Shown here: positions 1 through 60,179 of the stretch, in pieces | How the letters are laid out: every line of letters starts with the position of its first letter | Position numbering within the stretch: the stretch's first letter is position 1 | NCBI GenBank assembly: GCA_009829735.1 | Contig: CM020620.1 | Coordinates: 13,265,420 to 13,329,419 of the forward strand | Direction of reading: 5' to 3' | Source: Pyropia yezoensis | Lineage: Eukaryota > Rhodophyta > Bangiophyceae > Bangiales > Bangiaceae | DNA: 64,000 nt | Position numbers and translations under genes: made by a program | The notes under the pieces: generated by a model | Databases searched by the model: none | The model's input: only the letters and a program-made list of their open reading frames with translations | What the model was told of the DNA's origin: nothing

Positions 1-2
1 TG

Positions 3-764
3 GTTAATTGGATCCTTCGTCTTCACGCAGACGAGGCTTCCTTGGCTGTGCAGGTTGAAGAGTTCAACCGCGCCACCCAGAGTAAGGGTGAAGAGGAACG
101 GGAGTTCGCTGAACGACTTCGTCAGCTGAACGTCCTCTGTGGATTCCTATATCCCCAAGGAGTCATTAAGGGACGCTTTGTGGAGGGTGTCCACCGAGCA
201 GCTCGAGCGACTGTGCGAGAGCGTAATACTCCGACCATGACTCTGGCGGAGTTGGCACGCATCGCCCAGACTAAGGGTGATGAGTACCGCTGGCTCGTGT
301 CTGAGCAGCGGAAGGAACGAGAGAAAGAAGTTAAGGGAATGGAAGCAAGTCGCTTCCGCAGAACTGCAAGGGTGCCTTCCTACACGCGGACGTACCCTGC
401 AGTACCTTCGTCCTCAACTCGAGAGACGGAAGGTATGGTGGCCGCCATCCCTGATAAGTCACAGGGAAAAGCGGGGCCATCGGCGTCGATGAGTGATCGG
501 CCGTGTTGGCAGTGTTCCAAGTCGGGACACTGGGCAGCCCAATGCCCCACTCTGGACGTTCGTTTGAGAGCCCTGTTGGCTCGTATTGGGAAGCTCGGTA
601 TTCCGAGGACTGATTCGGATACCCGGCCACACACCACACGTGTGACGGCCATGACTCAACCTAAGTCAGAGGATGAGTCCACGCTTGAGAAGGGGGAAAC
701 CTCTTCCCCCAGCTCAAGTGGCAAGGATACTCCATCATCCGAGTCGGATGAGGGAAACGCCTAG
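3..764 (+). CDS. gag: Gag of element A (partial at window edge)
   Basis: C-terminal part of a Ty3/gypsy Gag, the structural protein that forms the particle and binds element RNA. The frame is open from the first bases of the window. It contains the retrotransposon-gag core (EFAERLRQLNVLCGFLYP and GRFVEGVHRAAR) that aligns with the Gag of element C at about 49,200-49,330. A CCHC zinc knuckle (CWQCSKSGHWAAQC) lies near 504-545, followed by a Ser/Glu-rich tail. The pol frame lies one base back relative to gag, as in element C, so Pol is probably made by frameshifting or re-initiation as in related families. The N-terminus is outside the window. Confidence 0.9.
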   Translation, partial: VNWILRLHADEASLAVQVEEFNRATQSKGEEEREFAERLRQLNVLCGFLYPQGVIKGRFVEGVHRAARATVRERNTPTMTLAELARIAQTKGDEYRWLVSEQRKEREKEVKGMEASRFRRTARVPSYTRTYPAVPSSSTRETEGMVAAIPDKSQGKAGPSASMSDRPCWQCSKSGHWAAQCPTLDVRLRALLARIGKLGIPRTDSDTRPHTTRVTAMTQPKSEDESTLEKGETSSPSSSGKDTPSSESDEGNA

Positions 765-802
765 CCGCTGGGACTAAGACTGACCCAAAGGCTCCAGCGG
801 TA

Positions 803-3800
803 ATGAAGCGGGTTGCTTCACGCTCACCGACCCATGGGAGAGTGAAGGTCCTGACTCGACCTCGAGGGGTGAGACCTAGGGACAAGGCCCCTCCTCAGAA
901 GCACGACCCGAGTCGGATTGTGTCAGTGCTGGTAGGGAGTAACTACCAGGTCGCAGCTCGACTCTGGCTGCAGGATGGATATGAGTTTACCTCTCGTGTC
1001 ATAGTCGACACAGGCTCTGCTGCCTCTCTCATTAGGCAAGACTTATTGCCAGAGGGGACGGATGTGAGCCCCGCCGGCTCACCCGAGTGGCGTATGTTTG
1101 ATGTCAATGGGGGACTCCTCCCCATTGTTGGGTCTATTGCATTGACTGTTTGCATTGGGTTCTACCAGACGCAGGTGAACTTTGGAGTAGTCTCCAATAT
1201 GTCAGTCCCCGTACTCCTGGGAACTGACTATCTGGACCTCCATGTCCCGGCCGTCTGTGGACCGGAAGGGATAATCCGAATGCGTAATGGAGAGACTGTC
1301 CCCATATTGCGTAAAGGGAGGACTGTTTCCCCTACGACTCATCAACCTAGGGAAAACTCTCCCAAGGGTGGAGGCTCTACGACCCATGTACGAGTATGTA
1401 AGGGTACGGTAGTCCCGCCCCGATCAAGGACCTTTGTGCGAGTACGCACACGGTTTCGAGGGAATGGACTTGTTTCCCCCGTGGACCGAGTCTATTATAC
1501 TCACCAAGTGCAAGTTGCTTGGGGCCCCATGACTTGTGGGGATGACCAAACCTGGTGGGTGGAGGTCCTCAACACGTCGGAGGAACCTCGACGACTCCCC
1601 GGAGGCATGAAGATTGCGTCGATCTCTACCTTTGAGGGGAATGTCGTTGCTGTGACTCAACAGCAATGGGAGGATATTGGAATGGCAGGCTCTGCCGACC
1701 AATCGAGTTCATCGACGGCTAAGTCGCCGACGGTACATCGGGAGAACATCCCGGAGTGTTTACATGGACGACTGGATGAGTTAATCCAGAAGCATCACAA
1801 GTTGTGGAATGGTGACCTTGGGCTCATCAAGGCCACCGAACACAGAATCGTGTTGAAGCCAGGGGCTAGGCCAGTTCGCCTGAGTCCCTACCGTATGGGA
1901 CCAGACTCACGGGAACTCACCCGAGAGCAGGTCCAACGGATGCAAGACATGGGTGTCATTGAGCCTTGCTCAAGTGAGTGGGCCAGTCCCATAGTCTTGG
2001 TGCCCAAGTCAGACGGCACGATGCGGTTCTGCATCGATTATCGTAAGCTAAACGAGCGGACGGTAAGGGATAGTTACCCCTTACCCCGTATGGACGATTG
2101 CCTTGACTCACTCGGTGAGGCACAGTACTTTTCCACGTTGGACTGCAACGCGGGGTACTGGCAGATACCCATCCGCAAGGAGGACAGACACTTGACCACC
2201 TTCACGTGTCACTGTGGAGTTTATCAGTGTACACGGCTCCCTTTTGGGCTTTGCAATGCACCTGCGACTTTCCAGCGTGCTATTGACTTGATACTTGCCG
2301 GAGTCAAGTGGCAGATCGCCCTGGTGTATCTGGACGATATCATTGTGTTCTCCGGGACTGCCGAAGAACACTTGTCCCACTTGGACAGAGTGTTTACCCT
2401 GTTGGGTGAAGCAGGAGTAACACTCAAACCTACGAAGTGTCACCTCTTTAGTAATGAGGTGGAGTACCTCGGCCATATAGTCCGGCCAGGTCGCATTCTG
2501 GTCAATGAGAAGAACCTCATGGCCATCCGTCGGGCGAAGTTCCCCCAGACGCAGACACAACTCAGGAGCTTCCTGGGTATGTGTAACGTATACAGACGCT
2601 TTGTGGCGAACTATGCCAAAGTGTCTGCACCGTTGAACCACTTGGTAAGTTCCAAGATGCCCAAGCGCTTGGATGCTCCCAAACCCCCGGAGCAAGAAGC
2701 GTTTGATAGGTTGCGAGAGCTCCTCTGCAACCCACCGGTGTTAGCGATCCCGAGACCGGGGGCTCACTACATCGTTGATGTGGACGCAAGTTACGACCAA
2801 CTCGGTTGTTGCTTACTCCAACAACAGCCTTCGGGGGAGTATTTACCCGTTGGCTATTTCAGGAAGGGACTCTCACCCGCCCAGAAGAACTATTCTGTGA
2901 CGGAGGTAGAGGGTCTTGGCGTGGTATGGGCAGTCTCCATGCTACGGCCATACATCGAAGGAAGGAAGTTCCTCATTCGATGTGACCACAAGGCTTTGAA
3001 GTGGATACTCACCACTACAGCCTGTACGAATAACCGACTCAATCGATGGCGACTCTGCCTCGCTGAGTTCGATTATGATGTTGAATATCGGCCAGGCCCG
3101 AAGCATGCGGTTGCGGACGCGTTGTCTCGCATACCGACGGATGGGAAAGACACTTCCCCTATCCCTGAGGAACTCCCTCATGTGGCAGTGACCACTCGCT
3201 CCGGAACTGTCCTCGACCCGAGGATGCCTGGCATGGCCAAATTATTACCCGTGTCTTTGGATGAGTTTGTCCAGGCACAGGAGAACGACAAACTTTGTCG
3301 ACGACTCAGGAAGGAGCTCGACCAGGCTCAACCGACTCGGTTCTTCCTGAATGACAACGGCATACTCTGCCGTAAGGGATATACCCAGGGGGACAAGCAA
3401 GTCGTCGTCCCCAAGGAGTTACGCAAGAGTATCCTCCAACGGGAGCACTCCTCACCGTTGGGTGGACACCCAGGGTCTACGAGGATGTATCAGACCCTAC
3501 GTAAGAAGTACTATTGGCCATCACTCGTGGCTGATGTGTACGGATATGTAGCCGCATGCGCGACTTGCGCAAAGAATAGACTCATGGAGTCCCGGCAGAC
3601 TTCTTCCATGAGACTCTTTCCTGCAACAGAGCCGTTTGCAGCGATAGCAGTGGACTTACTCGGTCCACTACCACGAACACCTGAAGGATATGAGTACCTT
3701 CTGGTGATGTGTGATCGCTTCACTAAGCTCACACGGGTATCCCCACTCAAGGATATCACAGCCGTGGACGTTCTGAGTGAGTTACTCGACGTCTGGGTTG

Positions 3801-4792
3801 CCAGTTATGGCATCCCCGACTCTATCCTTTCGGATAACGGACCACAGTTTGCGTCCGTCCTGTATCAGGGAGTCATGAAGATGTTGGGGGTGCAGACGAA
3901 CTTCGCCACCCCTTACCATCCCCAGACTAATGGGCAGGTGGAACGATTCAACAGGACTCTAGTGCGCCAGTTGCGTCACTATGTCCATGACCATGTAGTC
4001 ACATGGGCTCGTTATGCGTCACTACTCGTGACAGCATACAACTCCCAGGTACACAGTAGTACGGGAGAGGCACCGTTTGCCTTCGTCTGCCCCCGACGAC
4101 TTCCGTCAGTAGCTGTGGAGCGTCTCACCCAGACTGAGGGTGAGACTTCGACTCAAACACCGAGTCAGGCGAAAGCCTCCCTACTCCAGAGACTGGAGGA
4201 GATGATACCCCTTGTCCGGGCTACTATGGAGAAGGCCCAAGCCCGTTACAAGACGTACTTCGATGTCCGAGTCAGACATCGTCGCGATCCGCTCCGAGTT
4301 GGAGATTGGATTTATGTTAACTCCCACGACAATAAGGGAGGGAAATTGGTCTTCAAGACTCTGGGACCATATCACATCCTTAAAACGGATGGACGTCGGT
4401 TAACCATCGAGAGTGATGATGGTATCCGGACAATAAATGGGAATCACGCGACTCGCGCACCCGAACCCCCAGAGGGAGATCCCGCTTGGGAAAGGGCTTT
4501 GCAAGCATGGAAAGTCCCATCCTTGCCGACCTCTTCCAATAAGCCATTGGAGGCGGTGTTCGACAAGTTTGTCGGGCACGGATATGATGAGTCGGGGCGA
4601 CTCATGCTCCGAGTCAGGTGGTTCGGGTATGGACCAACTTCCGACACATGGGAGTTTGTAGAGGACCTACCAGTAGAGAAGGTCCGTAGATACTGCCAGA
4701 CTGTGGGCATATCTATACGCCGACGTAGCACTCGTACGTCGGGGGATGAAGTCCCTGCTCCAAGTCAGAGCAGAGCGGCAAGCCAACCATGA
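803..4792 (+). CDS. pol: Pol of element A: protease, RT, RNase H, integrase, chromodomain
   Basis: A 1329-residue polyprotein carrying the whole Ty3/gypsy enzyme set. The aspartic protease active site DTGSAA is at residues 69-74. Reverse transcriptase follows, with FCIDYRKLNE and the catalytic YLDDII near residue 510. RNase H begins near residue 659 (DVDASYDQLG). The integrase zinc domain (HPGSTRMYQ, then CATC) is near residues 889-920, and the catalytic D-D-E motifs are near residues 950, 1011 (SDNGPQF) and 1046 (NGQVERFNRTL). A chromodomain closes the protein at about 1253-1290 (MLRVRWFGYGPTSDTWEF), which in chromoviruses directs insertion by binding histone marks. The frame is open throughout and looks whole. 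The first Met is given as the start, but translation probably enters from gag. Confidence 0.95.
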   Translation: MKRVASRSPTHGRVKVLTRPRGVRPRDKAPPQKHDPSRIVSVLVGSNYQVAARLWLQDGYEFTSRVIVDTGSAASLIRQDLLPEGTDVSPAGSPEWRMFDVNGGLLPIVGSIALTVCIGFYQTQVNFGVVSNMSVPVLLGTDYLDLHVPAVCGPEGIIRMRNGETVPILRKGRTVSPTTHQPRENSPKGGGSTTHVRVCKGTVVPPRSRTFVRVRTRFRGNGLVSPVDRVYYTHQVQVAWGPMTCGDDQTWWVEVLNTSEEPRRLPGGMKIASISTFEGNVVAVTQQQWEDIGMAGSADQSSSSTAKSPTVHRENIPECLHGRLDELIQKHHKLWNGDLGLIKATEHRIVLKPGARPVRLSPYRMGPDSRELTREQVQRMQDMGVIEPCSSEWASPIVLVPKSDGTMRFCIDYRKLNERTVRDSYPLPRMDDCLDSLGEAQYFSTLDCNAGYWQIPIRKEDRHLTTFTCHCGVYQCTRLPFGLCNAPATFQRAIDLILAGVKWQIALVYLDDIIVFSGTAEEHLSHLDRVFTLLGEAGVTLKPTKCHLFSNEVEYLGHIVRPGRILVNEKNLMAIRRAKFPQTQTQLRSFLGMCNVYRRFVANYAKVSAPLNHLVSSKMPKRLDAPKPPEQEAFDRLRELLCNPPVLAIPRPGAHYIVDVDASYDQLGCCLLQQQPSGEYLPVGYFRKGLSPAQKNYSVTEVEGLGVVWAVSMLRPYIEGRKFLIRCDHKALKWILTTTACTNNRLNRWRLCLAEFDYDVEYRPGPKHAVADALSRIPTDGKDTSPIPEELPHVAVTTRSGTVLDPRMPGMAKLLPVSLDEFVQAQENDKLCRRLRKELDQAQPTRFFLNDNGILCRKGYTQGDKQVVVPKELRKSILQREHSSPLGGHPGSTRMYQTLRKKYYWPSLVADVYGYVAACATCAKNRLMESRQTSSMRLFPATEPFAAIAVDLLGPLPRTPEGYEYLLVMCDRFTKLTRVSPLKDITAVDVLSELLDVWVASYGIPDSILSDNGPQFASVLYQGVMKMLGVQTNFATPYHPQTNGQVERFNRTLVRQLRHYVHDHVVTWARYASLLVTAYNSQVHSSTGEAPFAFVCPRRLPSVAVERLTQTEGETSTQTPSQAKASLLQRLEEMIPLVRATMEKAQARYKTYFDVRVRHRRDPLRVGDWIYVNSHDNKGGKLVFKTLGPYHILKTDGRRLTIESDDGIRTINGNHATRAPEPPEGDPAWERALQAWKVPSLPTSSNKPLEAVFDKFVGHGYDESGRLMLRVRWFGYGPTSDTWEFVEDLPVEKVRRYCQTVGISIRRRSTRTSGDEVPAPSQSRAASQP

Positions 4793-4920
4793 GTACAAAC
4801 ACATACCATGGTTCTTCAAAGATTCTCTACTAACAAAGCCGACTATGGCACAATACAAAACGAGAAGAATACCCACCACTCTTCTCACCAAGGAAAGAAC
4901 AAGTCGTTCGACCGCTGACT

Positions 4921-6723
4921 CTAGCGTTCCATATGGCCACCCCCACCACTATAGGGACCGCCCGACCACGAACCCCCAGGGTCGTAGGCCGGTAGCGGAG
5001 GGGCGTAACCCACTCGGGAGGGCCCCGGAGTGGAAGCACTGGGAGGGGCCCGCCGACTCGCGGACCCATCCCCGTCGTAAGATAGATGTCCGGAGGTACT
5101 CCCTCCGTGACGCGGAAGCTGCTGCTGAGTCGACAGCAGCCGTTGGACAAACTCGTGTCCAACCGCGAGGCGAGTGACCTCAGCTGCCAATGACTGTCGC
5201 GCCGTGGCTGAGTCGCCCGACGCGAGGAAGTGACTGACACGCCGGGTGACCCAAGCCAACGTGTCAAGGGAGGCCACGAGTGAGGCCTCCACCGTGGCGT
5301 CATACATGATGGCTCCCAAGTTGGGAAGCATCTCGCCAACGCCACGCGCAATCGGCATGGGTACCGGAGTTCGGACCCGTAGCGAACCCAACGCCACGTC
5401 GGGGAAGGGCTCGAGGAACTGGAAGGGTGGAGCCTGAGTCGGCTCCACACCCCCCGAGGTCGGAGTCGCGACCCGCGGGGAAGTCGTCGGCACAGCTCGC
5501 CCGCGGCTTCGAGGGGCTCCTCGATGAGCACCACGACGAGTCGTCGCCGATGATGTCGCCCACCCAGAGCCAGGGGGCGACGTAGAGGGAGTAACCCCCT
5601 CTGCGTAGGGAAGGGAAGAGTCCCCCAACCCCTCACGCAAGAACAGCTGTCCCTGCACCAGAGTATGGGTGACATGGACGAACTCCCGGGGTGGCTCACT
5701 CTCCAACCCCGGCTCTGGACGCTTGTTGCGGCGGAGGAAGGGTTCCAGCTGCGCCCAATCGAGTCGATTGTGCAGGGTGACCATACCCTTAAGGAGGAAC
5801 GGAGCCAGGTCCCCCGCGCCCAAGGCTAACCAGTGGAAGCCAAGGGTTTCCATACCCTCCACCAGAGCCGGTGGGAGGTGCCACAGGTAACCCCGATGGA
5901 CTACATCGGAGTACCAGCCCCGAGTCACCACGACCACCCAGTGCGTGGCGAGGTAGGCGAAGACCCGGTTACCCTCCGAGCTGGAGCGTAGCACGGAGCC
6001 AAAGTAGGCAACGAGGAGGGGGATCCGAGCCGGAAACCCACAAGGTACCTCCACTGTCTCCCACCACCCTGGGAGAAAAGGGTACTGGTGCTCACGCTCC
6101 TCCAGAGGTACGTGGGTGAACTCCACCCGCGACCCGTGGATGAGGAAGCCCGAGGAGCCCCGGAGTCGGAACTCCTCTCGCACCACGCCGTGTTGGGCGT
6201 GGGCGTCCTCTCCGCCCAGGTAGGGACGGGGAAGGGCACACCACTCGGTAGACACAACCGCGTGGGTGTCGTCGATCTCCACGTCGCCCGACCCCAAGGC
6301 GAGGGAGGTTGACAACGCCTGGACTTCAGGCGCGTCCGCCAGGCAGAGTAGCGCTGGTAGGTCGCAGACCACCCCATCAGGTAGAGTCACCTGGTTGGGG
6401 TACCGACGAGTCCGGCGGTACCATACGTCGGTCCGCCGTGGCTCGGGGATGATCAAGTAGACATCCTTGAGCTTGCAGTCGGGAAGCTCCCCGACTGACT
6501 TGGGAGGCGCCCAGGCTCGGGGCCCCATAGGAGGACGGGGCCGCGGCGGGAGTAGCAGCCGTGACTCAGGAAGGCGGGGGATGGGAGTCACATCCCCTTC
6601 CGCCACCGGGTTGGAAGACCCATCCCCCGGTGGGACCACGGCCGAGGGGGCAGTAGGAGGTGATGGGGCGGGGACGGCTGAGGCGGCCGCCTCCGACCCT
6701 CGCCCGGGACGAGTCGTCTCCAT
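4921..6723 (-). CDS. Antisense accessory ORF of element A
   Basis: Unrecognised protein encoded between pol and the 3' LTR on the strand opposite to pol, ending 128 bp from the pol stop (convergent). The frame is open up to 7545, but upstream of the Met at 6723 (METTRPGRGSEAA) it is low-complexity and overlaps a minisatellite, so the 600-residue form is preferred. The N-terminus is rich in Pro, Ala and Ser. The middle carries WWETVEVPCGFPARIP, LATHWVVVVTRGW, YLWHLPPALVEGMETL and FLREGLGDSSLPYAEGV. These match the element-B ORF closely (WWPQVEVPYGFPALLP, LATQWLLEVM, MLWHLPLRLLQGLEQL, VLREGLGIGDYPYAPGV) and the element-D ORF more weakly. The tail has PNLGAIMYD and a helical stretch. No catalytic motif is visible. 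Retention in diverged elements suggests selection; the function is unknown. Confidence 0.75.
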   Translation of the reverse strand: METTRPGRGSEAAASAVPAPSPPTAPSAVVPPGDGSSNPVAEGDVTPIPRLPESRLLLPPRPRPPMGPRAWAPPKSVGELPDCKLKDVYLIIPEPRRTDVWYRRTRRYPNQVTLPDGVVCDLPALLCLADAPEVQALSTSLALGSGDVEIDDTHAVVSTEWCALPRPYLGGEDAHAQHGVVREEFRLRGSSGFLIHGSRVEFTHVPLEEREHQYPFLPGWWETVEVPCGFPARIPLLVAYFGSVLRSSSEGNRVFAYLATHWVVVVTRGWYSDVVHRGYLWHLPPALVEGMETLGFHWLALGAGDLAPFLLKGMVTLHNRLDWAQLEPFLRRNKRPEPGLESEPPREFVHVTHTLVQGQLFLREGLGDSSLPYAEGVTPSTSPPGSGWATSSATTRRGAHRGAPRSRGRAVPTTSPRVATPTSGGVEPTQAPPFQFLEPFPDVALGSLRVRTPVPMPIARGVGEMLPNLGAIMYDATVEASLVASLDTLAWVTRRVSHFLASGDSATARQSLAAEVTRLAVGHEFVQRLLSTQQQLPRHGGSTSGHLSYDGDGSASRRAPPSASTPGPSRVGYAPPLPAYDPGGSWSGGPYSGGGGHMER

Positions 6724-7829
6724 GGCCGACCCCCGGCTGAGAGACTCCTCAGTCCCGAGGGCCTCCTCTCCCGTCCGTCGCTTGTCCGACAGAGACGTCG
6801 GAGACGGGGACAAAGGCCGACTCGGCTCACCCGCCATCACGCGACCAACCTTGACCGACTCGGTGAGGTTGAGCACGGGGGGGGACACGACCCGCTCCCC
6901 CTCCGACGACAACCAACCTTGACCGACTCGGTGAGGTAGAGCAAGGGGGGGGGACACGACCCACACCCCCCACCGACAACGAAGAAGCCCGACACAAGGG
7001 GCAGCGCGGGGAAGACACAACCCCGCCAACGAGGACAAAGGGGGGGGAACACAACCCACGCCCCCACCGACAACGAAGACGCCCGACACAGGGGCGGAAG
7101 GGGGAAGACACCACCCCAACCAACGACACCAACCGCACGGCGGGAAGAGACAGACCCGCCGACGCGAGGGAGCAGCGGCGGGAAGGCACACACCCGCCCG
7201 CACACACGAAGGGGAGAGAAGACCCCGCACCGGCGGCCGAGTCCCACCGCCGGCGACCGAGTGCAACACCCCCAACTCGGGGTGCGCACACCCCTCAACC
7301 CTGACTAGAAAGGGGGGGGAAGGAGTGAGGAACACCCCGCAGAGAGCCAGCTGGGGGTGGATCGAGCTGAAGGGGGGGACACAACCCGACCCCCCGAGAG
7401 CAACCGTACCCCAACTGAAGGGGCAGGTGCAGGTCGACGTTCCGAGTGAGAGCGTCGACGCCCTACTCCTCCAGTTGAGGGGCAGGGGGTGTGGCGGAGG
7501 TACGCCGACACCCAGATTAGGGGGCTCACCCACACGTGAGTCCACCCGTGGAGCACCCTGACCAGGTGGGGGACGACTTTCCCCCGCACCTGTTTCGCGT
7601 GGAGGGGGCTCCTCTACCCAGTGTCAGGGCAGAGAGCGCACCCCACGGAGAGGGACTGCCTCTCCCGGAGGGCCCCGCCGGACGCGAGTGCAACCCCGGC
7701 GTAACCCTGGTGCACGCTAGACGCCAGCGATGCACCGTACTTTGCATCTCAACTCGGGAATTGCATCCTCCTCTCCCGGTCACTACGACTCGCCGCTGAT
7801 TGGACGTCCACCGGGACGGCTGGACTTTT
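6724..7829. other. Noncoding 3' region of element A, upstream of the antisense ORF
   Basis: About 1.1 kb between the antisense ORF start and the polypurine tract. It is C/A-rich on the plus strand. The left part (about 6838-7130) is repetitive; the rest has no supported gene. It should hold the promoter and leader of the antisense ORF, but no core promoter motif is clear. Confidence 0.5.
6838..7130. repeat. Imperfect minisatellite in element A
   Basis: The segment ACCTTGACCGACTCGGTGAG occurs near 6848 and 6916 (period about 68). A second motif, CCCACCGACAACGAAGA, recurs near 6967 and 7062 (period about 95). G runs of 7-9 bases separate the units. Confidence 0.7.
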
Positions 7830-7842
7830 GAGAAGGGGGAAA
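7830..7842 (+). other. Polypurine tract of element A
   Basis: A purine-only run (GAGAAGGGGGAAA) lies directly before the TGTGGG start of the 3' LTR. This is the expected plus-strand primer site for reverse transcription. Confidence 0.85.
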
Positions 7843-8382
7843 TGTGGGAGATTGGGCCGGAATTCGGTACCAATACTTTGAAGATTCGGGTCAAGTGGAC
7901 CTGACCGGAAGTCGAAATTCACCCGACCCACGATGGTGAAACTTCTGACTTCTGGACGGAAATTCGACTAGGACTTCCGACATACTAGAGCAGGGTAATG
8001 CTGCTGGTATTTGTTTCTTGGGATTTTTGCACGGGAGCCAGACGGATTTCTACGCTTTGAGTTCTTTGCATGTGGAGTGATATGATTGGTTTGTTTGAGG
8101 GTTCATTTTCTGAGTGTTTTGAGGGGTTGCGTGAGCGTGTGAGGAGGGTTGATAAGGAGGGACAGCAAGGCGGGGAGGACCCACCTTGGCTGGCCAAAGA
8201 AAGAAAACACCGTCTGGCTCCGACACATCTTGTTCGTGCCTTGGTGAGTGGACCCGCTCACCACACGCAAGTTCCGTGTTCGGCTGTGTGGAGGTGCTTG
8301 CTTCCGGTGTCCCAAGTTGGGATATCGGCAATACTCCTCTTCCTTCCCTGACTCGGGGTTGGTGGTGGGGAGTACTGCTACA
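7843..8382 (+). repeat. 3' LTR of element A (540 bp)
   Basis: It begins TGTGGGAGATTGGG after the polypurine tract and ends GTACTGCTACA, giving the TGT...ACA termini shared by all LTRs in this window. From 8383 the sequence matches family B, which fixes the right end. It contains the perfect palindrome TCCCAAGTTGGGA at 8310-8322. The 5' partner is outside the window. Confidence 0.85.
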
Positions 8383-9247
8383 GACCGCACGCGACGGGGG
8401 GTCACAAAAGCGAGGGGTACTTCCCCGGTAGATGAGTGAACCTGCGAATTGTAGGCAGTGGTAAGAATAGAAATGTATTGGTCCCACGTTTTCACATGCT
8501 CACTCACATAGTGGCGCAGCTGCCTAACAATAGTTTTGTTGAAGCGCTCCTTGACGAGGGCCCTTGAACGGGGCCCTCCCCTATACGGTTGTTGGCGTAT
8601 AGGGGGTACACCGGGTTTCAACTCGATCCGGTGTTGGGTGGCTCTCATGAGTCCCAATTGACCATCCCACAACTTGTGATATTGGTCCAAGACCACCGTT
8701 CCTCTGAGACAGAGGGCCCCCTACACCCGGGTGCACCCGGAGGTAAAGTTTACCTCTGTCCCCTGCTGCTCCACCAAATGTGGCAAAAACCACAAGCACA
8801 CACGGCACCCAAGTTGGGGCGGTGTGCTAGGGCTGCCTCCCGTGTCGGGGGAACCGGAAGAAGTGCAAGTCGCACACACTCTGTCCCTGTTGTGGGGCAA
8901 ACCCCCCACGGACAAACAAGAGGATGGTGTGTGGTCCAACAGTTTCTTGGTCGGGACGGGGACGCAGGGCCAAGCCCCGCTGTCCCTCCCCTTATCCCCC
9001 CAGGGTCCACTCAGAATCTCGCCACTCAGAATCTCCCACCCCAGCACCTGCCCACCGGGCCACACGAAAATTCAAGACGATAAATGCAGAAAACCCTCAA
9101 ATCCAAGTTGGATTTACTACTAAGCTAACTATCCCAAACTTAGGGAATATGGACCCAAATGCAGGGGGAGGAACGGATCAGGCTAGTGGCCTGCCGCCCC
9201 TTGCATGGCACGTGTTGCCCCCCTACCTGGGGGTCAATACTGCCACA
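8383..9247 (-). mobile_element. Family-B copy (5' end) interrupted by element A
   Basis: This is a near-perfect repeat of 12279-13143 (offset 3896). In minus orientation it holds a 5' LTR (8779-9247), a primer-binding site just inside it, the leader and a reduced pol. It stops where the element-A LTR ends; the rest lies beyond the left edge. It shares its LTR with the B element to the right, giving the order LTR-internal-LTR-internal. Broken copy. Confidence 0.85.
8779..9247 (-). repeat. Family-B LTR (469 bp), shared by two B units
   Basis: On the plus strand it runs from TGTGGCAAAAACC to ACTGCCACA, so it begins TGTGGCAG in element sense. It appears identical to 12675-13143 and is the inverted equivalent of the element-C 5' LTR at 47302-47772, with a few differences. 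On its right (9248-9259) lies TCCCCTCTCCTC, the complement of a polypurine tract, so it is the 3' LTR of the B element to its right. On its left lies a primer-binding site, so it is also the 5' LTR of the interrupted B copy. Confidence 0.9.
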
Positions 9248-9585
9248 CTCCCCTCTCCTCAGTTCCGACCGACCCGGTCGGCCCTGTGAGGGGGTGCGTA
9301 AACGCACGTCTCGGCGTTGGGGGCGCGACTTGCTGTCCCCCATCGAGTACGTAACACGGATGTGGAGGCGGTCACGTTGACCGCCCCTCTCCCCAAGCTT
9401 GCCCACTCGGCGGCTTGCTCTCCTCAGTTCACACTTCACCATCACCACCACCTCCCCTTCACCTTCCACTGGGCCGCCCCACGCTGGGGAGGCCACCCGT
9501 ATACCCACGATCCGAGTCCCCCTCAACTCGAGGCGGGTCTCGTGCTGCGATAGCCAGAGCGTCTCTCCCCAACTTGGGGAGAGCC
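9248..9585. other. Polypurine tract and upstream region of the B antisense ORF
   Basis: The complement of a polypurine tract lies at 9248-9259. The remaining 330 bases have no supported gene and lead to the antisense ORF start at 9586. The last 20 bases form a long perfect palindrome that ends two bases before the ATG. Confidence 0.6.
9563..9583 (+). promoter_or_regulatory. Perfect stem-loop ending two bases before the antisense ORF start
   Basis: A 21-base perfect inverted repeat. As RNA it gives an 8-bp stem (arm CTCTCCCC) closed by the loop AACTT. It ends two bases upstream of the ATG at 9586, where a hairpin could affect start-codon use. It is one of a family of hairpins with related loops in this element. 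Confidence 0.6.
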
Positions 9586-11530
9586 ATGGCGACTCCGGGA
9601 GTGGAGACGGACTCTCTTGACGAGCGCATGGAGGACACCTCCTACGGGGCAGCACCCGCCGGGACTTCCGGCGGGGGCTCCGCGATCGCTCCGGGGGACG
9701 GGACTCCCGCGTCACCCGGCTTTGGGTTGACGGCGGGGTCTCCCCCGGAGGCGGGACAAGTTGTCCCGCGTGAGGCCTTGGGGCGGTGGTTTTACCCCGC
9801 TTGGCCTCTCTATGAGGAGGGGCTGACTGTTCTTCGCTGTGGCCGACTTGGCGCAGCGATGGGCCGGGTATGGGACCGCCTACGGGAGAAGTATCCCCGT
9901 AGGGTCGGGTTCCCTGCCGGCTTCAGGACGGACCAGTTTGCCTTCCTGGACGATGAGGAGGTTGAGGACGTTCAGCGTGCCAAGGCCATGGTGGACCGCG
10001 GGGGAACTATCCCGGGTCCCGGCGACTTGCCGACCTTCACGTGGGACGCTGTGGCAACTCGCCCACCGTACCTCCACGAGGCCGATTCGCACACTCATCA
10101 CTTTGATGTGCGGATGGAGAAAGACTTCCGGCGAGGTCCCTACTTGGTGACCTCGGCTCAACTTGAGTTTCCTCAACAGTCTGCTGCCAGTAAGGAGCAG
10201 TACTATCCGAAGAAGCCCGAGTGGTGGCCTCAAGTTGAGGTCCCCTACGGGTTCCCGGCGTTGTTGCCACGGTTGCTTGACCACTTCCGGCTCCGTCATG
10301 TTGACGGCTGCCCCTGATCACCTGGTGTGGGCCATGTTGGCCACCCAGTGGCTCCTCGAGGTCATGTCGACCTGGGTGTCCTGTGTTCAGCGGCGGGGGA
10401 TGCTCTGGCATCTCCCCCTCCGGCTCCTCCAAGGTTTGGAACAGCTCACCCCTCAGCTAGTTGCTGAGGGGTGCTCATCAGGACAACTCACTCTACTTGA
10501 GGAGATGCTCCGGCTCCATAAGTTTATCGAGTGGGAGAGCATTGAGCACAAGTTGCGCCGCCCCACTCGTGGGCCCAAGGACGATGGCGCACTTCGCCAG
10601 TTCGTGTGGGTCGCTCGTGAACTTCACGACGGCCGTGTGGTCTTACGAGAGGGGTTGGGCATCGGGGACTACCCGTATGCCCCGGGGGTGGATCGCCACA
10701 CTGCGCCACCCCCGGACAAGCCCATAGTTATGGCCGTGCCGTCCTATGATGACCATATGACTCAACCCACTGCGGGGGCCCCAAGTCGGGGTCGCAGTTA
10801 CACCCGGGTACCGCCACCTCGGCGGGCCCCTCCGCTTCCTCCTGTTCCTTTCCAACCTCACGGGAACATCCCGATCAGCGTGGCCGTGGAGTCTTCCACC
10901 CCGGTGTCCCCCAACTTGGGGGCCACCCTCCTGACGGTATACCCCAAGTTGGTGTTGCCGCCCACGCCTCTAACCTCAGATATGATGATCACCACGTTGG
11001 TGCGCACCATTTCCTGGTTGGCCGCGTCGACCGCAACCCTACAGAGTTCCGAGACTCCTCAACTTGAGGAGCGCGTTCGTACTGCAGTGGCGACCGCGAG
11101 TTGCGAGTCGGTGGCGGAGTTTATGACAGCCGAGTTGGCTCGCATTGGGGCTATTATGCCCCAGCCAGCCCCACTTGGGCGTGGCAAACGTCGCGCGAGC
11201 CGGGCATACTCGCCTCCTCGCCGTCGTCGCCGACACTCTCGGCGCTCTCCTTCCGTATCGGAAGACGAGTTGTCTTACTCCGTTTCGGAGTCCTCTACCC
11301 CGTCGGAGACGGAGTCTGTCCAGCGTCTGCGTCGCAAACTTGCGCGCAAGACCAGGCAGAAGAGTGGCCACGGTCGGCGCCACTTGCGCGACCGTGAGGG
11401 GCGCGACGGTTCCGACTTGGAGCCGCCGCCCCCTCCAACGAGTGGAGACCGTTATCGGCGTGGGTCTCGCCGCTCGCCTCCACGTGAGGGCGAGGGCCGT
11501 GGAGTGGGAGAGTCTAGCATGCGTGCCTAG
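9586..11530 (+). CDS. Antisense accessory ORF of element B (broken, about one break)
   Basis: Counterpart of the element-A antisense ORF: opposite strand to pol, convergent with it (111-bp gap), next to the 3' LTR. It starts MATPGVETDSLDERMEDT. It shares WWPQVEVPYGFPALLP, LATQWLLEVM, LWHLPLRLLQGLEQL and VLREGLGIGDYPYAPGV with the A protein, then SPNLGATLL. The C-terminus adds a basic Arg/Ser tract (SPPRRRRRHSRRSPS) followed by RRKLARKTRQKS, resembling an SR-type RNA-binding tail or a nuclear signal. The reading frame is interrupted about once, so this copy is a fossil or needs recoding. The RNA is very rich in perfect hairpins with loops of the type NACTT or NAGTT (see findings). No known domain is recognised. 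Confidence 0.7.
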
Positions 11531-11641
11531 TTGGCAGCTGCCTTTGTTGTGAGAGTGTGAGGGTTAGGGCTGTAGTTAAAAGCTACTCTGCGTACCACTT
11601 CAACTTGAAGCACTCTCTTGGCACTGTTGCTCGGCCTTCCC

Positions 11642-12592
11642 TCACGTTGAGGGAGGGCTGTTAGGGTCTATCTCATTCCGGGCACAGTACGCCCGGACCT
11701 TCTCAGCGGGAAGGTCCTCCACATACTCCCACGTATCATCCTTGGCTTTGTAGCCAAACCAACGCACCCTCAACATGAGGCGGTCAGTGTCTTCATCCCA
11801 TCCGTGGTCGATGAACTTATCGAACACGTACTCCTGCGGGCCCTGTTTGGCCGCAGGCAGTGAGGGGAGGCGCCACGCTTCCAAAGCACGCGCCCAAGCT
11901 GGGTCGCCTGCAGGCGGTGGTGCAACTTTGACCACGTCCTGTCCGTTCACTGTGCGGACCCCATCGTCACTTTCGATGGTGAAGCGCCGCCCATCAGTAC
12001 GAAGGACCTGGTACGGTCCCTTCGTCTGGAATACCAGCTTACCCCCAGTTGGGGTGTGCGAGTGTACCAGCACCCAGTCACCCTGCTCGGGGACATGTTT
12101 AGCATTGCGCACCTTTTTGTCAAAGGTACGCTTGTAGCGCTTTTGTGCTTTGTCCATCTCAGCCCTGACTTTAGGGATGAGGTTTTCAAGCCTAGCAGCG
12201 AACTCCGCCTTACTCTCAGTAGGAGTAGGCGTGCTGCCATCATCCTCCCTAGTTGGGAGCGACCGCCGCACAGCAATAGACCGCACGCGACGGGGGGTCA
12301 CAAAAGCGAGGGGTACTTCCCCGGTAGATGAGTGAACCTGCGAATTGTAGGCAGTGGTAAGAATAGAAATGTATTGGTCCCACGTTTTCACATGCTCACT
12401 CACATAGTGGCGCAGCTGCCTAACAATAGTTTTGTTGAAGCGCTCCTTGACGAGGGCCCTTGAACGGGGCCCTCCCCTATACGGTTGTTGGCGTATAGGG
12501 GGTACACCGGGTTTCAACTCGATCCGGTGTTGGGTGGCTCTCATGAGTCCCAATTGACCATCCCACAACTTGTGATATTGGTCCAAGACCAC
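11642..12592 (-). pseudogene. pol: Reduced pol of element B
   Basis: A minus-strand frame of 316 residues holding sequence from the region before reverse transcriptase (LDQYHKLWDGQLGLMRATQH) and from the end of integrase (RQLRHYVSEHVKTWDQY) through the chromodomain (MLRVRWFGYKAKDDTWEYVE). It matches the corresponding parts of element C closely (61,230-61,370 and 63,390-64,000). The catalytic cores are absent, so it cannot supply enzymes. Fossil. Confidence 0.9.
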
Positions 12593-12635
12593 CGTTCCTC
12601 TGAGACAGAGGGCCCCCTACACCCGGGTGCACCCG

Positions 12636-12652
12636 GAGGTAAAGTTTACCTC
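12636..12652 (-). promoter_or_regulatory. Leader hairpin of element B next to the primer-binding site
   Basis: A 17-base perfect inverted repeat directly inside the primer-binding site: 6-bp stem (GAGGTA) with loop AACTT in element sense. Identical copies lie at 8740-8756 and, inverted, at 47795-47811 in element C. Confidence 0.6.
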
Positions 12653-12653
12653 T

Positions 12654-12672
12654 GTCCCCTGCTGCTCCACCA
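12654..12672 (-). other. Primer-binding site of element B
   Basis: In element sense, TGGTGGAGCAGCAGGGGAC starts two bases after the LTR end. It begins TGG, the complement of a tRNA CCA end. The same site is used by elements C and D, and a close variant by E. I do not recognise the tRNA. Confidence 0.75.
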
Positions 12673-12674
12673 AA

Positions 12675-13143
12675 TGTGGCAAAAACCACAAGCACACACG
12701 GCACCCAAGTTGGGGCGGTGTGCTAGGGCTGCCTCCCGTGTCGGGGGAACCGGAAGAAGTGCAAGTCGCACACACTCTGTCCCTGTTGTGGGGCAAACCC
12801 CCCACGGACAAACAAGAGGATGGTGTGTGGTCCAACAGTTTCTTGGTCGGGACGGGGACGCAGGGCCAAGCCCCGCTGTCCCTCCCCTTATCCCCCCAGG
12901 GTCCACTCAGAATCTCGCCACTCAGAATCTCCCACCCCAGCACCTGCCCACCGGGCCACACGAAAATTCAAGACGATAAATGCAGAAAACCCTCAAATCC
13001 AAGTTGGATTTACTACTAAGCTAACTATCCCAAACTTAGGGAATATGGACCCAAATGCAGGGGGAGGAACGGATCAGGCTAGTGGCCTGCCGCCCCTTGC
13101 ATGGCACGTGTTGCCCCCCTACCTGGGGGTCAATACTGCCACA
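12675..13143 (-). repeat. 5' LTR of element B (469 bp)
   Basis: Direct repeat of 8779-9247 at an offset of 3896 bases, with no difference that I noticed. It is followed in element sense by the primer-binding site, so it is the 5' LTR. The repeat ends sharply at 13143. Confidence 0.9.
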
Positions 13144-13334
13144 CAGCCGGCCGCCTCGGCGGCGACCATGGCCGGCAGCAGCAGCAGCACCTGGTTGGCC
13201 ACCACCCGCGGGAGGAGCGCCGCGTAGCGCCGCCCCGGGTCCGCCTCGACGCGCACCTTGGCGCCCGCCCCCGCCGCCGTGGCGTCCGCGACGGCCGCGA
13301 CGGCGGCGGCGGCGTGGAACACCCCCACCGCGTA
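13144..13334 (-). pseudogene. Fragment of a host coding gene, possibly sterol-desaturase/fatty-acid-hydroxylase-like
   Basis: Between the B LTR and the family-E leader lies about 190 bp with host-like GC-rich codon use. On the minus strand it reads YAVGVFHAAAAVAAVADAT, then KVRVEADPGRRYAALLPRV followed by VANQVLLLLPAMVAAEAAG. The last part resembles the N-terminal region of membrane-bound fatty-acid hydroxylases and sterol desaturases, where a Lys/Arg-rich cytosolic turn precedes a helix beginning N-Q, but the His boxes needed to confirm this are absent. It may be what remains of a gene split by the insertions. Weak assignment. Confidence 0.3.
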
Positions 13335-13550: not shown

Positions 13551-13885
13551 TGTAGCACAATAGGGAACCGTTACCTGTCCACTCTCAGGGAACACTCACC
13601 TGGGGGATCCGCTTCAGAGTCATTGGGTGGCCAAGGTTGCTGTCCTTGGAGCGCAATCCACGGGACCAAGATGGGAGCCCAAAAAGGAAGGGGATTGTTG
13701 CTATCCTATTACCCGCGGCGGATCCGCCGCCGGCCTCTCGTTATAAACCCGCGGTAACGACCTCTAAATACCCTACTCTCCAATACGCAGGTCCCTCAGG
13801 CTCTCCGTAAGCCGTACATACCTTTGCAAAGGTAAACTCACAAAATGAAAGGTCAGAATCAGAAGTAGCTTCCCTGCAAACCGAC
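13551..13885 (-). repeat. Family-E LTR copy E1 (minus orientation)
   Basis: On the plus strand it starts TGTAGCACAATAGGGA at the LTR terminus and follows the other E LTRs inverted as far as about 13885, where the similarity fades. The adjoining plus-strand GTCTCCTGCTGCTCAACCA (13531-13549) is the complement of a primer-binding site, one base from the LTR. This is therefore the 5' LTR of an element extending leftward. Confidence 0.75.
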
Positions 13886-14690
13886 ATGAGACCGCCCGAC
13901 GGGGTGCCCGTCGGGAAACGGGCAGCCGCAGTGACCGGAGGAGCCCGGGGCGCCTCGCCGTCCTCAGACGAGCTGGCACCCGCCTAGTAAGTAACCCCGA
14001 CGGGAGTAGTACCGACGGCGTCGTCGTCCTCCATGTCCTCCTCCAGTAGGAGATCGTCCACACCCCCGGTAACTACGGGGTCAGTCATATCGAGGGGCAT
14101 TAGGGGCACCCCTCACCTCCCGGAAGAGAACTCGTCCACCCGAGCGTGCAAACCACACCGGGACGAGCCAGGGACGTGCGGATACCCGCGCATATCTACG
14201 CCTACCTTCTAACGAGAGGTTGCCCGACGACGGGTGGTAACGGCGTCCTCTAGCCGCCCCCGTGCCACACACGGGCACGGGCGCCCTCCACCCCGGCACC
14301 GGGGTATCCACAGCTACCGCCCACGGGGTGAATCGAAAGGGGTGACCCTAACGCACCCTTCCCTACGGGAAGCGATTACAACCCACCCGCCGCCCCGCCC
14401 TCGAGAGGGCGGGGCAATCCCCAAACACCTGGAGGCGGATCCGCTTGCACCAAGACCCCGGAAGGGTCGTGCAGCCAATCCCGTATCGCGAAAACCGGCA
14501 GTCCGGTAAACGGACCGACTGTGAGTCAGCTCGAGAGAGCAAATAACGCCCCCCGTGGTACCCAACGATCGGGTGACCGCCGTCAACGGGCGCAAAGCCC
14601 CATCCAATCAGAAAACGATTGCGAGACGAACAACATTAGGAAATACGAATGTGCGTTCGACCCGAGGACGGGTCGGATCTAAGGGGGGGG
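13886..14690. other. Family-E internal sequence ending in a polypurine tract
   Basis: Noncoding or decayed 3'-internal sequence. From about 14080 it aligns as a direct repeat with 15060-15693 (shared blocks CGGTCCGGTAAACGGACC, CCCTCGAGAGGGCGGGG and CCCACGGGG). It ends with AAGGGGGGGG directly before the LTR. On the minus strand, 13,990-14,080 encodes an acidic stretch (DDLLLEEDMEDDDAVG) that may be the tail of an old gag or pol. Confidence 0.55.
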
Positions 14691-15056
14691 TGTATAGCAA
14701 CATGGGAGCCTGTATTGTTATCCCAACTTATGAGGGCTACTTCTGATTCGTACCTTTCATTTCGTGGGTTCACTATGGCTACGGTATGTACGGGTTACGT
14801 ATATCCCAGAGGGACCTGCGCATTGGAGGGGAGGGTATTTAGAGTTCCTCTCCGTGGGTTTATAACGAGAGGCCGGCGGCGGATCCGCAGAGGGTAATAG
14901 GATAACAACAATCCCCCCCCTTTTTGGGCTCCCATCTTGGTCCCGTGGATTGTGCTCCAAGGACAGCAACCTTGGCCTCCCGGTGACTTTGACGCGGATC
15001 CCCCTTGGTGAGTGCTCCCTGAGAGTGGACAGTTAACTGTCCCGTATTGTGCTACA
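14691..15056 (+). repeat. Family-E LTR copy E2 (366 bp)
   Basis: It begins TGTATAGCAACATGGG after an AAGGGGGGGG polypurine tract and ends ATTGTGCTACA. It is diverged from E3. Confidence 0.8.
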
Positions 15057-15693
15057 CCCCGGCAGCTGCGGGGTCATTCATAACTACCGGATGTAGGGAC
15101 ACCCCTCACTCCGCGGACGAGCGGCCCCCGCTACCCGAGCGTGCCGGCCGCGCCGGGACGATCCAGAGAAGCGTGGTTACCCCCGCTTATCTAGGCCGAC
15201 CACCGCACGCGAGGCATCCCGGGGACGGGTAGTATCGCTCTCCGCCAGGCGGAAACCGTACCACACACGGGTACAGGCACCCTCCGCGCAGGGGCGCGGA
15301 GAACCCCCGCGTCGCCACCCACGGGGCGAGTCGAAAGGGACAACCCTGACCCACCGCCCCACGGAAAAGGATTAGGGACCGCCCGAACTCGCGCCCTCGA
15401 GAGGGCGGGGCCAGCCCCCAGGCACCTGGTGGCGGACCAGTTTTGCACCACTACATCCAGGAACGGATGTGAAACCAACCCCACATGGGGGGGGTCGACG
15501 GTCCGGTAAACGGACCAACTGTGAGTCATCACAGGAGCGGCAGGGGGGGCACCCCCGCTCGATTCGGTATCTGAGTGACTACAATGAACGGGCGAAAAGC
15601 TCCGCCCAATCGGAAAAGGAGTGCCGACCTAAGTAATTCGAAAGTACGAATCTACGTTGAACCCGAGAACGGGTCGAATCTAAGGGGGAGATT
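15057..15693 (+). other. Second family-E 3'-internal segment
   Basis: Direct repeat of about 14080-14690 with many substitutions. It ends with a polypurine tract (AAGGGGGAGATT). The sequence after the E2 LTR is not a primer-binding site, so 14691-16054 is not a simple miniature LTR-internal-LTR element; it is two 3' ends in tandem. Confidence 0.6.
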
Positions 15694-16054
15694 TGTAGCA
15701 ATACGGGAACCCGTATTGCAACCCCAATTCAGGGGGACTACTTCTTGATTCCCACTTTCGGTCGTGGGATCACTACGGCTACGGTATCCGTGAGGTACGT
15801 ATGACCAGAGGTACTTGCGCATTGGAGGGGTGGGTACTTAGAGTTCGTCTCTGCGGGTTTATGACCAGGAACGGGAGGCGGATCCGTCGCCGGCAATGGT
15901 AAAACAACAAACCCTTCCCATTTGGGCTCTCATCTTGGTCCCGTGGCTCGCGCTCCAAGGATAGCAACCGTGGCCTCCCGGTGACTTGTGTGCGCATCCC
16001 TTCTGGTGAGCGTTCCCTGAAAGTGGACAGGTAACGGATCCCTATTGTGCTACA
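15694..16054 (+). repeat. Family-E LTR copy E3 (361 bp)
   Basis: It begins TGTAGCAATACGGGAACC and ends CCTATTGTGCTACA. It abuts the truncated minus-strand coding region to its right, which ends inside it. Confidence 0.8.
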
Positions 16055-33917: not shown

Positions 33918-34861
33918 ATGAACCTGATGCTGACCATCCCGCCCACCCCCCCCGACGCGACCGACACCTTCCTCCGGCTGCCGCCGCACCTGGCCGGCGC
34001 GGCGTACCGGCGTCCGCCGCCGCCGCCCGTCGCCACCTCCACCGCCGCCGCCTCCTCCGCCACCGCCAGCGCGCCCCCCCCCCCCGCGCTCCCCCCCCAC
34101 CTCCTCTTCCTGCGGGTAACCCCCCCGCGGGGGGGTCGCCCCTTTGTGGCCGCCTGGGCGGGCGGCGCCTCGGCGGCCGCGTCGGCCGTGGCGCTCCACC
34201 ACCCCGCTGCTGCGGCGGCGGGGCTCGTCGCGGGCGATGCGCTAACGCTCTCCCCGGTGGGGGCGGCCATCCCCATTGCCCGCCGCGTGACCGTCACCCT
34301 TGATGGTGGTGGGTGCGGCGGCGGCGGCGGCGCTGCCGCTTCGGCCCTTGCCGCCGAGGCCGCCGCGTCGTGGGGGGTGCTCGTCCGCAACGGCGCGGCC
34401 GCGGCGGCGGGGGGGGTGCTGTCCCAGGCGCGGGTGGTCAACGTGGGGGGGGTGCTGCCGCTGCGGCTTGCCGGAGGCGGGGGGGGGGTGCGCCTGTACG
34501 TTGCCAGCGTGGAGGTGTGGGGGAGTTCGGGAGGGACTGGAGGGGAAGGCGGCGGCGGTGGCGGTGGCGGCGGCGGTGGCGGTGGCGGCGGCGGCTGGGC
34601 CGCCCTTGTCGACACCACCGAGGTGGAGGTGGTGCCGCCGCCACCGCCGCCGCCGGTGCGGCCGTCAGTGGTGGCAGCGGGGAGGGTGGGGGGGGGGGAG
34701 GGGGCTCCCCCCCGCCCGGCCGCGGTCGGCCTGGGGGGGGAGGGGCGGCGTTTCGCCGGCCCCGCCCGCGCCCGCCACCGCCGTTGCACGTGCGGGCGGT
34801 GCTGCGGGTGGTGGTGGGCGACGTGCCGCCCAATGGCGGGGGTGACCCGCCGGCCGCACCG

Positions 34862-34892
<31 letters not shown>

Positions 34893-37107: not shown

Positions 37108-37144
<37 letters not shown>

Positions 37145-37430
37145 ACATGGCCGTCCCCACCGCCAGTGGCGCCGTCTCCGCCGACGGGGACCTGACGGGG
37201 GCGGCGCCCCCCCCCCCCCCCCCCCCCGCGCGGGCGCGCGCGGCGGCGGCCGACGCGCTGTGGGCGGCCGCCGTCGGCGGCTCTGCCGCCGCCGTTGCCG
37301 CCCTCCGGCGGGCGGTGGAGCTGCCGGTGCAGCACCCGCGGCTGTTTGCGGGCGCCGCCGCCCCCTTCCCCGCCGCCCGGCACGTGCTCGTGTACGGCCC
37401 CCCCGGGGCGGGCAAGTCCCGCCTCGTCGC

Positions 37431-37461
<31 letters not shown>

Positions 37462-47850: not shown

Positions 47851-47891
47851 AACGGTGGACTTGGACCTTGTCATACGGATCGTTAGCCAAC

Positions 47892-50961: not shown

Positions 50962-51146
50962 TAGCTCCCTCCCTAGTCCGGCACGTCCTCGGGCCGAACC
51001 AGGTGCCACCGTGCACAGCCTCGAGCACGTCCACACCGGTGCCGAGGTCGAGCGTCTTCACCCCGGTCACGATCACCTGCCCCGATTCTGCCCCCCCCCC
51101 TCCGCTCCTTCACCTTGGCCCTCTCGTTCCCCGGAGTCTGGACGGT

Positions 51147-53264: not shown

Positions 53265-53409
53265 TAGTTGGATGCAAGGAGGGTGAGGGTCTTGGGAGAA
53301 GCGAGGAGGGAAGAGGCGGAGAGAAGGGTTGCTCGAGCGGGTGCTTGTTTTCCTTGATTGCTCCATGCTTGCATTGCGTGTTCTCCTAGATATACCCGTT
53401 CCCTTCTTC

Positions 53410-59970: not shown

Positions 59971-60158
59971 GTTGGTCTCTTGACAGCCACAGTCCAGTTA
60001 CCTGCGTGTCCAAAGATCGCAAGACCACAAGAGAGGGGTTGGAGAGCCAGGAATGGGGTTCCCGTGAACGGGTGCAAATAATTCCCAAACCACAGAAAAA
60101 GACAGAATAGGAACAACGCAACCGCTGCTCCCAAATGTCTCTTCTCAAACACTCCAAT

Positions 60159-60175
60159 CCCCTGCTGCTCCACCA
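60159..60175 (-). other. Primer-binding site of element D
   Basis: In element sense TGGTGGAGCAGCAGGGG, four bases after the 5' LTR (60,180-60,752). It is the same 17 bases as in elements B and C although the LTRs are unrelated, so the same tRNA primes these families. Confidence 0.75.
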
Positions 60176-60179
60176 AATA

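Follow-up and report, generated by a model that had tools for sequence, protein, structure and literature searches.

Short hairpins with a common A-C-T or A-G-T loop centre are dispersed over two Gypsy retrotransposon families of Pyropia yezoensis

The genome of the red alga Pyropia yezoensis has, according to its genome report, a GC content of 65% and a repeat share of 48%, predominantly LTR elements (PMC7423979). A stretch of 64,000 nucleotides of this genome (hereafter the window) was analysed and the 107.5-Mb assembly of 11 contigs was searched for copies of its elements. Three Gypsy elements, designated A, B and C, overlap within the window (Table 1). Reverse transcriptase (RT), RNase H and integrase are found in Gypsy order, as in Ty3/Gypsy chromoviruses. 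A chromodomain (PF00385) at the end of pol is matched below its curated cut-off in all three, with E-values of 0.0069 (A), 1.8e-4 (B) and 8.9e-5 (C). Family A extends beyond the window on the upstream side, where part of its gag and the other LTR are located. In our reading, element A was inserted into a tandem pair of B-family units, and the hairpin-rich antisense gene belongs to the second of these, which extends from the LTR at ~12675-13144 to that at ~8779-9247 and retains the antisense gene without gag and most of pol. A direct repeat of 99.7% identity (8374-9248 and 12270-13144) flanks this unit, and a copy boundary at ~8779 occurs in most mapped loci. The window copy of the B antisense gene has one reading-frame change inside the gene. 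A further B copy, whose LTR starts at ~47278, is split by element C.

Table 1. Features of the window and A-S-T hairpins (S, C or G) of the B-family unit
Feature	Position	Strand	Remark
Family A element	1-8382	+	pol 803-4792; antisense gene 4921-7545 (minus strand); LTR ~7843-8382
B-unit LTR (approximate ends)	8779-9247	-	partner 12675-13144
B antisense gene	9415-11530	+	opposite to gag-pol, between pol and LTR
Second B copy, gag region	47868-50387	+	15 A-S-T hairpins of at least 4 bp; zinc knuckle in ORF
Element C	50388-60752		LTRs 574 bp, 100% identical
Second B copy, pol (RT, RNase H, integrase)	60753-64000	+	14 A-S-T hairpins of at least 4 bp
Hairpins in LTR	8863-8875, 9099-9115, 9179-9193		
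Hairpin, AACTC, 4 bp	9521-9533		
Hairpin, AACTT, 8 bp	9563-9583		
Hairpin, GACTT, 8 bp	9655-9675		
Hairpin, AAGTT, 7 bp	9751-9769		imperfect or absent in 9/13 aligned rows
Hairpin, GACTT, 4 bp	10020-10032		
Hairpin, AACTT, 3 bp	10157-10167		
Hairpin, AAGTT, 4 bp	10228-10240		
Hairpin, TAGTT, 11 bp	10447-10473		
Hairpin, CACTT, 5 bp	10585-10599		
Hairpin, AACTT, 5 bp	10615-10629		
Hairpin, GACTA, 4 bp	10663-10675		
Hairpin, AAGTC, 4 bp	10779-10791		9 other aligned rows: identical stem, loop GAGTA
Hairpin, AACTT, 5 bp	10908-10922		
Hairpin, AACTT, 6 bp	11055-11071		in 12/12 rows reaching the site, window copy counted
Hairpin, GAGTT, 4 bp	11128-11140		
Hairpin, CACTT, 4 bp	11168-11180		
Hairpin, CACTC, 6 bp	11228-11244		
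Hairpin, GAGTT, 5 bp	11262-11276		
Hairpin, CACTT, 11 bp, one bulge	11369-11396		
Hairpin, GACTT, 7 bp, one G-U	11407-11425		
Hairpin, TAGTT, 4 bp	11524-11536		
Hairpin, AACTT, 4 bp	11598-11610		

The pol products of A and B share 61-64% amino-acid identity, and both show 32-53% identity to that of C in the longer alignments, with one stretch of 96 residues at 65%. Gag of B and C are homologous (28%). The antisense proteins of A and B are homologous as well (40% over 144 residues and 33% over 144), while that of C has a remote match to A (25% over 150 residues, E-value 1e-8) and none to B. The idea that element C lacks a related antisense gene was dropped on account of this match. No Pfam match was obtained for the antisense protein of A, of B or of three database relatives, and a search for relatives in prokaryote and viral contigs and in phage records gave no lead. 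Fixed differences in the B antisense gene are distributed over codon positions as 35/611, 12/609 and 95/608, a skew that indicates selection on the protein.

In the initial annotation the B antisense gene was described as packed with sixteen short hairpins, the stems differing and the loops following the pattern N-A-S-T-T. All 16 were recovered from the window sequence with their loops and positions, and the one G-U pair at 11407-11425 and the one bulge at 11369-11396 could be read by eye. The hairpin at 11598-11610 falls just beyond the coordinate range that the annotation had itself given. Between 9400 and 11700, hairpins with an N-A-S-T-T loop and a mismatch-free stem number 16, 9, 5 and 4 at minimum stem lengths of 4, 5, 6 and 7 bp, respectively. 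The means of 300 dinucleotide-preserving shuffles of that region were 0.05, 0.02, 0.01 and 0.00. Synonymous-codon shuffles, in which protein and codon usage are preserved (200 per piece), gave 0.38 and 0.48 expected A-S-T-loop hairpins for the two halves of the antisense gene, which contain 6 and 12. The seven coding pieces of A and B together hold 64 against ~4.1 expected, and the four pieces of element C hold 1 against ~1.1. A chance origin is ruled out by both types of shuffle; coding constraint as the cause is ruled out by the synonymous-codon shuffles together with the conservation at third codon positions reported below. Five-nt-loop hairpins without the motif are somewhat above expectation in the seven A and B pieces (97 against ~64). 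Counted by pentamer, a stem of at least 4 bp surrounds 16/40 N-A-S-T-T occurrences in 9400-11640, 0/101 in 14000-46000 and 1/51 in element C. Hairpins with odd loops (3, 5, 7 and 9 nt) are in excess in the antisense gene, with little or no excess of even loops. Rfam gave no match at gathering score within the 64-kb window and a PDB sequence search no lead.

The recurrent loop motif is real but is not the one-strand N-A-S-T-T of the initial annotation. That form was replaced after an unbiased scan of 5-nt loops in families A and B for each of the 64 possible middle trinucleotides, in which 77/611 A-S-T pentamers had a stem (A-G-T 41/297, A-C-T 36/314) as compared to 118/16412 of the others. The motif is thus the strand-symmetric centre A-C-T or A-G-T of a 5-nt loop, and A-S-T equals its reverse complement. 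When motif discovery was applied to loops of 3-9 nt, A-S-T ranked top, in central position in 5-, 7- and 9-nt loops. The apex is C or G and hardly ever A or U: stems were found around 37/327 ACT and 46/329 AGT pentamers, versus 1/89 AAT and 0/87 ATT. Both apices are used in each family, with C:G counts of 16:16 in A and 21:30 in B. Five-nt loops beginning with A (A1) or ending in T (T5) are favoured; in gag-pol sense, 30/131 loops with A1 only and 16/99 with T5 only have a stem. Loops that could be closed by a further C-G or T-A pair are not used (0/38 and 0/15), from which it follows that the loop must stay open. C-G predominates as closing pair (52/83 hairpins). All four Watson-Crick types occur among the stem pairs (C-G 69, G-C 65, A-T 33, T-A 33), hence the recurring feature of the arms is pairing rather than a fixed sequence.

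The hairpins had been described as a property of the B antisense gene. They are dense there, with 18 A-S-T hairpins of at least 4 bp, but they also occur in gag, pol and LTR of both families. Family A has 10 in pol and 9 in its antisense gene, and the 1.9 kb that includes its upstream gag and LTR has another 9. In A and in every part of B, the bases on either side of A-S-T are more often complementary at offsets 3-6, and in several of these parts also further out. Complementarity is flat (0.22-0.30, offsets 2-16) in element C, in 13.3-46 kb of the window (32.7 kb) and in six of ten random loci of 5 kb each, namely those that contain no A or B sequence. Hairpin counts are 0, 0, 2, 0, 0 and 1 in these six and 5-10 in each of the four loci that do contain such sequence. 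Element C, although related, and host DNA therefore show hairpins at background level only, and a host-wide property is ruled out for the DNA sampled.

Folding energies show a similar distribution. In A and B the mean z-scores against shuffles range from -1.38 to -2.48 and are low on both strands, as compared to -0.06 to -0.43 in C. A and B are structured even where a folding window holds no A-S-T hairpin: the mean z-scores of such windows are -2.32, -1.68, -1.32 (3 windows), -2.43 and -1.78 for five genes, as compared to -0.03 to -0.57 in C, host and random DNA.

Conservation was tested for the B family on two alignments, in which 12 copies were set against the window antisense gene and 11 against gag. 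Copies comprised 10 of 42 and 10 of 45 matches listed, chosen across the identity range, plus three from the random loci. Rows left out were L044, L060, L063 and L065 for the antisense gene (near the window copy or mixed) and L069 for gag (identical to L068); L050-L055 and the near-identical copies L009-L038 were kept out of the selection test. Fixed differences separate the present B lineage from an older one: the older group (8 antisense rows, 10 gag rows) shows the window base in no more than one row. It was in that older group that hairpins were ascertained, with presence in at least 4 rows.

In the antisense gene, stems of A-S-T hairpins with 5-, 7- or 9-nt loops carry 1/166 fixed differences versus 143/1704 elsewhere (p 1.4e-5), and in gag 4/104 versus 184/1607 (p 0.007). 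Non-motif hairpins with the same loop sizes show no conservation (18/252 in the antisense gene, 35/298 in gag), and the direct comparison of motif with non-motif stems gives p 0.0007 and 0.011, respectively. The effect is also present at third codon positions for 5-nt loops: 0/38 versus 95/570 in the antisense gene (p 0.0013) and 2/31 versus 104/535 in gag (p 0.049). Random hairpin shifts that preserve codon phase gave p 0.0006 and 0.03. Restoring L060 left the antisense test unchanged (1/128). When hairpins are ascertained in the window copy instead, the antisense result is weaker (7/176, shift p 0.037) and that for gag is not significant (9/112 versus 174/1566, shift p 0.28); under the strictest filter (6 rows) the gag result (1/20) is no longer significant and the antisense p rises to 0.02-0.08. 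Non-motif hairpins of gag with stems of at least 5 bp are also conserved (24/341 versus 164/1370, p 0.005). For the loop core itself, no significant conservation was detected (1/36 in the antisense gene, 2/27 in gag).

Changes private to single copies do not avoid the stems: their rates at stem and other sites are 0.029 and 0.032 in the antisense gene and 0.047 and 0.039 in gag. One-sided breaks at about the background rate are what is expected of dead insertions. Since fixed changes avoid stems and private changes do not, the stems were held during replication and decay afterwards, so they were under selection while the B element replicated.

Compensatory change, which usually serves as proof of RNA pairing and which the initial annotation had envisaged among genomic copies, was sought between A and B, in four first copies and in two copy sets. 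None was found among lineage-fixed changes, where 0/107 stem pairs are two-sided: the antisense gene has 1 one-sided and 0 two-sided changes in 64 pairs, gag 3 and 0 in 43. Isolated two-sided pairs occur in single copies (two in L046, one in L041). In the aligned parts of A and B, 1/19 A hairpins coincides with a B hairpin, 0.72 being expected, and that one has a compensated pair; over the long term, positions of hairpins are thus subject to turnover between the two families. Neither strand is favoured, as mismatch counts and folding z-scores are alike on both. Single mismatches include 16 G-U and 17 A-C (22 and 16 in a looser count), and those at stem ends 18 G-U and 14 A-C. Given a strand-symmetric motif and no preference for G-U, genomic RNA is not singled out. 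Variable stems around a fixed loop had been taken as the signature of a protein-recognised RNA hairpin. What stands of this is a set of hairpins found all along the retroelements, whose stems are more conserved than coding explains and, within the antisense gene, are so around the motif only; the assignment to genomic RNA does not follow.

Pairing without fixed arms implies folding of a single strand, and a loop motif implies a reader, be it a protein or a complementary class of loops. The hairpins thus point to a signal that acts via folding of element RNA or single-stranded DNA. We consider it highly probable that the A and B families carry a selected, dispersed stem-loop code. This code would consist of tens of short hairpins per element, with stems free in sequence but paired and with A-C-U or A-G-U at the apex of an open loop of 5 (also 7 or 9) nt, and purifying selection would maintain it during element replication. 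Its purpose is a more tentative matter. The stem-loops may be docking sites on the single-stranded genome of the element for an element-encoded protein, with a role in packaging. The loops would then dock on genomic RNA and perhaps also on cDNA, and many weak contacts might together fold the genome and select it for the particle. The full-length genomic transcript would presumably be the RNA that spans all hairpins in gag, pol, LTR and antisense gene. The candidate reader is a nucleic-acid-binding protein of the element, Gag in the first place and the antisense-gene product in the second. Homologues of Gag and of the antisense protein exist in C, whose hairpins are at chance level only; either reader would hence have specialised in the A/B lineage. 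We infer all three components of this model, i.e. RNA or single-stranded DNA folding as the selected trait, a protein as reader and packaging as purpose.

A protein that reads RNA of one strand would not be expected to accept C and G at the apex yet refuse A and U. Such usage is more easily explained by pairing between loops or by a need for both strands, for which reason these two alternatives are kept high. In the first, A-C-U loops pair with A-G-U loops within or between RNAs and thereby condense or dimerise the genome without a protein reader. A partner rule accounts for an apex that is C or G, hardly A or U, with both classes in use. The two classes of 37 and 46 hairpins are mutually complementary, and the best loops, AACTT and AAGTT, are so over all five bases, as can be read from the sequences. 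The avoidance of closable loops also fits, since it keeps the loop open, although a single protein contacting A and U would do likewise. Five-nt loops are, however, short for kissing interactions, and this alternative is rather unlikely. Retroviral dimer initiation, to which it bears resemblance in that the loops are able to pair mutually, uses one self-complementary kissing loop in the leader, while A and B have loops by the tens, dispersed and falling into two complementary classes. In its extended version the lineage would have filled its whole genome with the two classes, and many interchangeable kissing contacts would make the RNA fold, condense and pair with sister genomes, any paired sequence serving as stem; this we regard as unlikely.

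The second alternative is that both strands matter, the hairpins acting in genomic RNA as well as in its complement, whether minus-strand cDNA or an antisense transcript, or else as palindromes in duplex DNA. The strand symmetry of the motif, the lack of G-U preference and the equal folding of either strand are in line with it, and the antisense gene implies an antisense transcript. On the other hand, gag and pol, where no antisense gene is known, are hairpin-rich too (15 and 14, the antisense gene having 18). Extrusion from duplex DNA is hardly to be expected of stems of 4-8 bp, and a duplex-DNA binder could not read arbitrary paired arms; for the latter reason a duplex site of a dimeric protein is rejected as sole explanation. 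Overall we consider a both-strand function quite improbable.

If the loop motif were a by-product of a general, genome-wide RNA structure, for instance one directed against silencing, this would explain why stretches of A and B that hold no A-S-T hairpin fold better than shuffles and why longer non-motif stems of gag are conserved as well. Such an explanation is very unlikely given that one loop motif dominates the unbiased scan and that the antisense gene conserves A-S-T stems only. A mutational origin, in which RT snap-back or quasi-palindrome correction creates palindromes during copying, fits the restriction of the excess to the A and B lineages and the clustered changes, several within one arm, by which 9751-9769 differs from older copies, but it is highly improbable, as arm correction should leave two-sided changes (0/107 pairs among fixed changes), no loop motif is predicted, the antisense gene shows no conservation of other-loop stems (18/252) and element C, with a homologous RT, has hairpins at chance level only.

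Packaging-like recognition of stem-loops hence is our best guess, made partly by analogy with known systems, with a network of loop-loop contacts as a live rival. Genome-scale ordered RNA structure is known in RNA viruses, and A and B resemble these in folding below shuffles along the whole element; they differ in their uniform apical loop motif and in folding equally on both strands. Among the systems in the papers cited here, the closest is that of the dispersed packaging signals of hepatitis B virus, whose RGAG loop motif is described as recognised by the core protein in vitro (PMC8677749; cf. PMC7612645). In both cases many stem-loops with one short loop motif lie along a reverse-transcribing genome. 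Unlike the signals as described for the virus, the A/B motif is its own reverse complement, is carried by an algal LTR retrotransposon and has only putative protein readers. The additional antisense gene has the same place and orientation as the antisense ORF that plant Retand and related Gypsy elements are reported to have between pol and the 3' LTR (PMC11963269). Those ORFs are described as mostly containing a TRP28 domain (PF04195) and their elements as non-chromoviruses, whereas the A/B antisense gene gave no Pfam match, TRP28 included, and the A/B pol has weak chromodomain matches.

Titles and abstract openings listed in searches of PMC revealed neither such a code in an LTR retrotransposon nor a two-class loop pattern. 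The debate over dispersed packaging or folding signals arises from the difficulty of proving any single hairpin. The A/B lineage provides a large set with a sharp loop motif and, in the related element with hairpins at chance level, a built-in control. The hairpin at 10447-10473 alone has 601 + 627 genome matches with at most two mismatches. Given more than a thousand matches across the genome and stems that are maintained at synonymous sites, the possibility of a distributed assembly code in LTR retrotransposons becomes directly testable.

The antisense gene of the related Gypsy LTR retrotransposon families A and B, which lies opposite to gag-pol between pol and LTR, is without match in Pfam or PDB. 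Relatives of its product are present in the protein collection (P0002, 59% identity; P0003, 50%), and fixed differences per codon position show that the gene is under protein selection.

Coordinates of the antisense gene and of element C in the window
Feature	Position	Strand	Remarks
Antisense gene, A/B elements	4921-7545	minus	
Antisense gene, A/B elements	9415-11530	plus	
Element C, Gypsy, related to A/B	50388-60752		LTRs of 574 bp, identical to each other

At 8374-13144 and locus L010, two units of the B family are arranged in tandem, the first of them interrupted by an insertion of element A. In the B unit that holds the studied hairpins, gag and the greater part of pol are gone, but the antisense gene is retained. 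Relative to most aligned older genomic copies of this gene, hairpin 9751-9769 displays clustered changes, several of which fall in one arm, and this cluster renders its arms complementary.

Elsewhere in the window, units of about 99 bp, roughly 90% identical, are repeated in tandem within long open frames on both strands (21766-24411). A 1-kb unit is present in two tandem copies with 73% identity (14064-16054), with a partial inverted copy at 13551-13869. The GC content of 34001-38000 is 0.82-0.86 in 2-kb steps, far higher than that of the remaining window.

Element C, nested in a B copy where it separates gag from pol, was used as control; A-S-T hairpins, short variable stems with a 5-nt (also 7- or 9-nt) loop centred on A-C-T or A-G-T, occur in it at chance level only. 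In the A and B genes, sub-windows without A-S-T hairpins still fold better than shuffles; RNA structure in these families extends element-wide, beyond the A-S-T motif.
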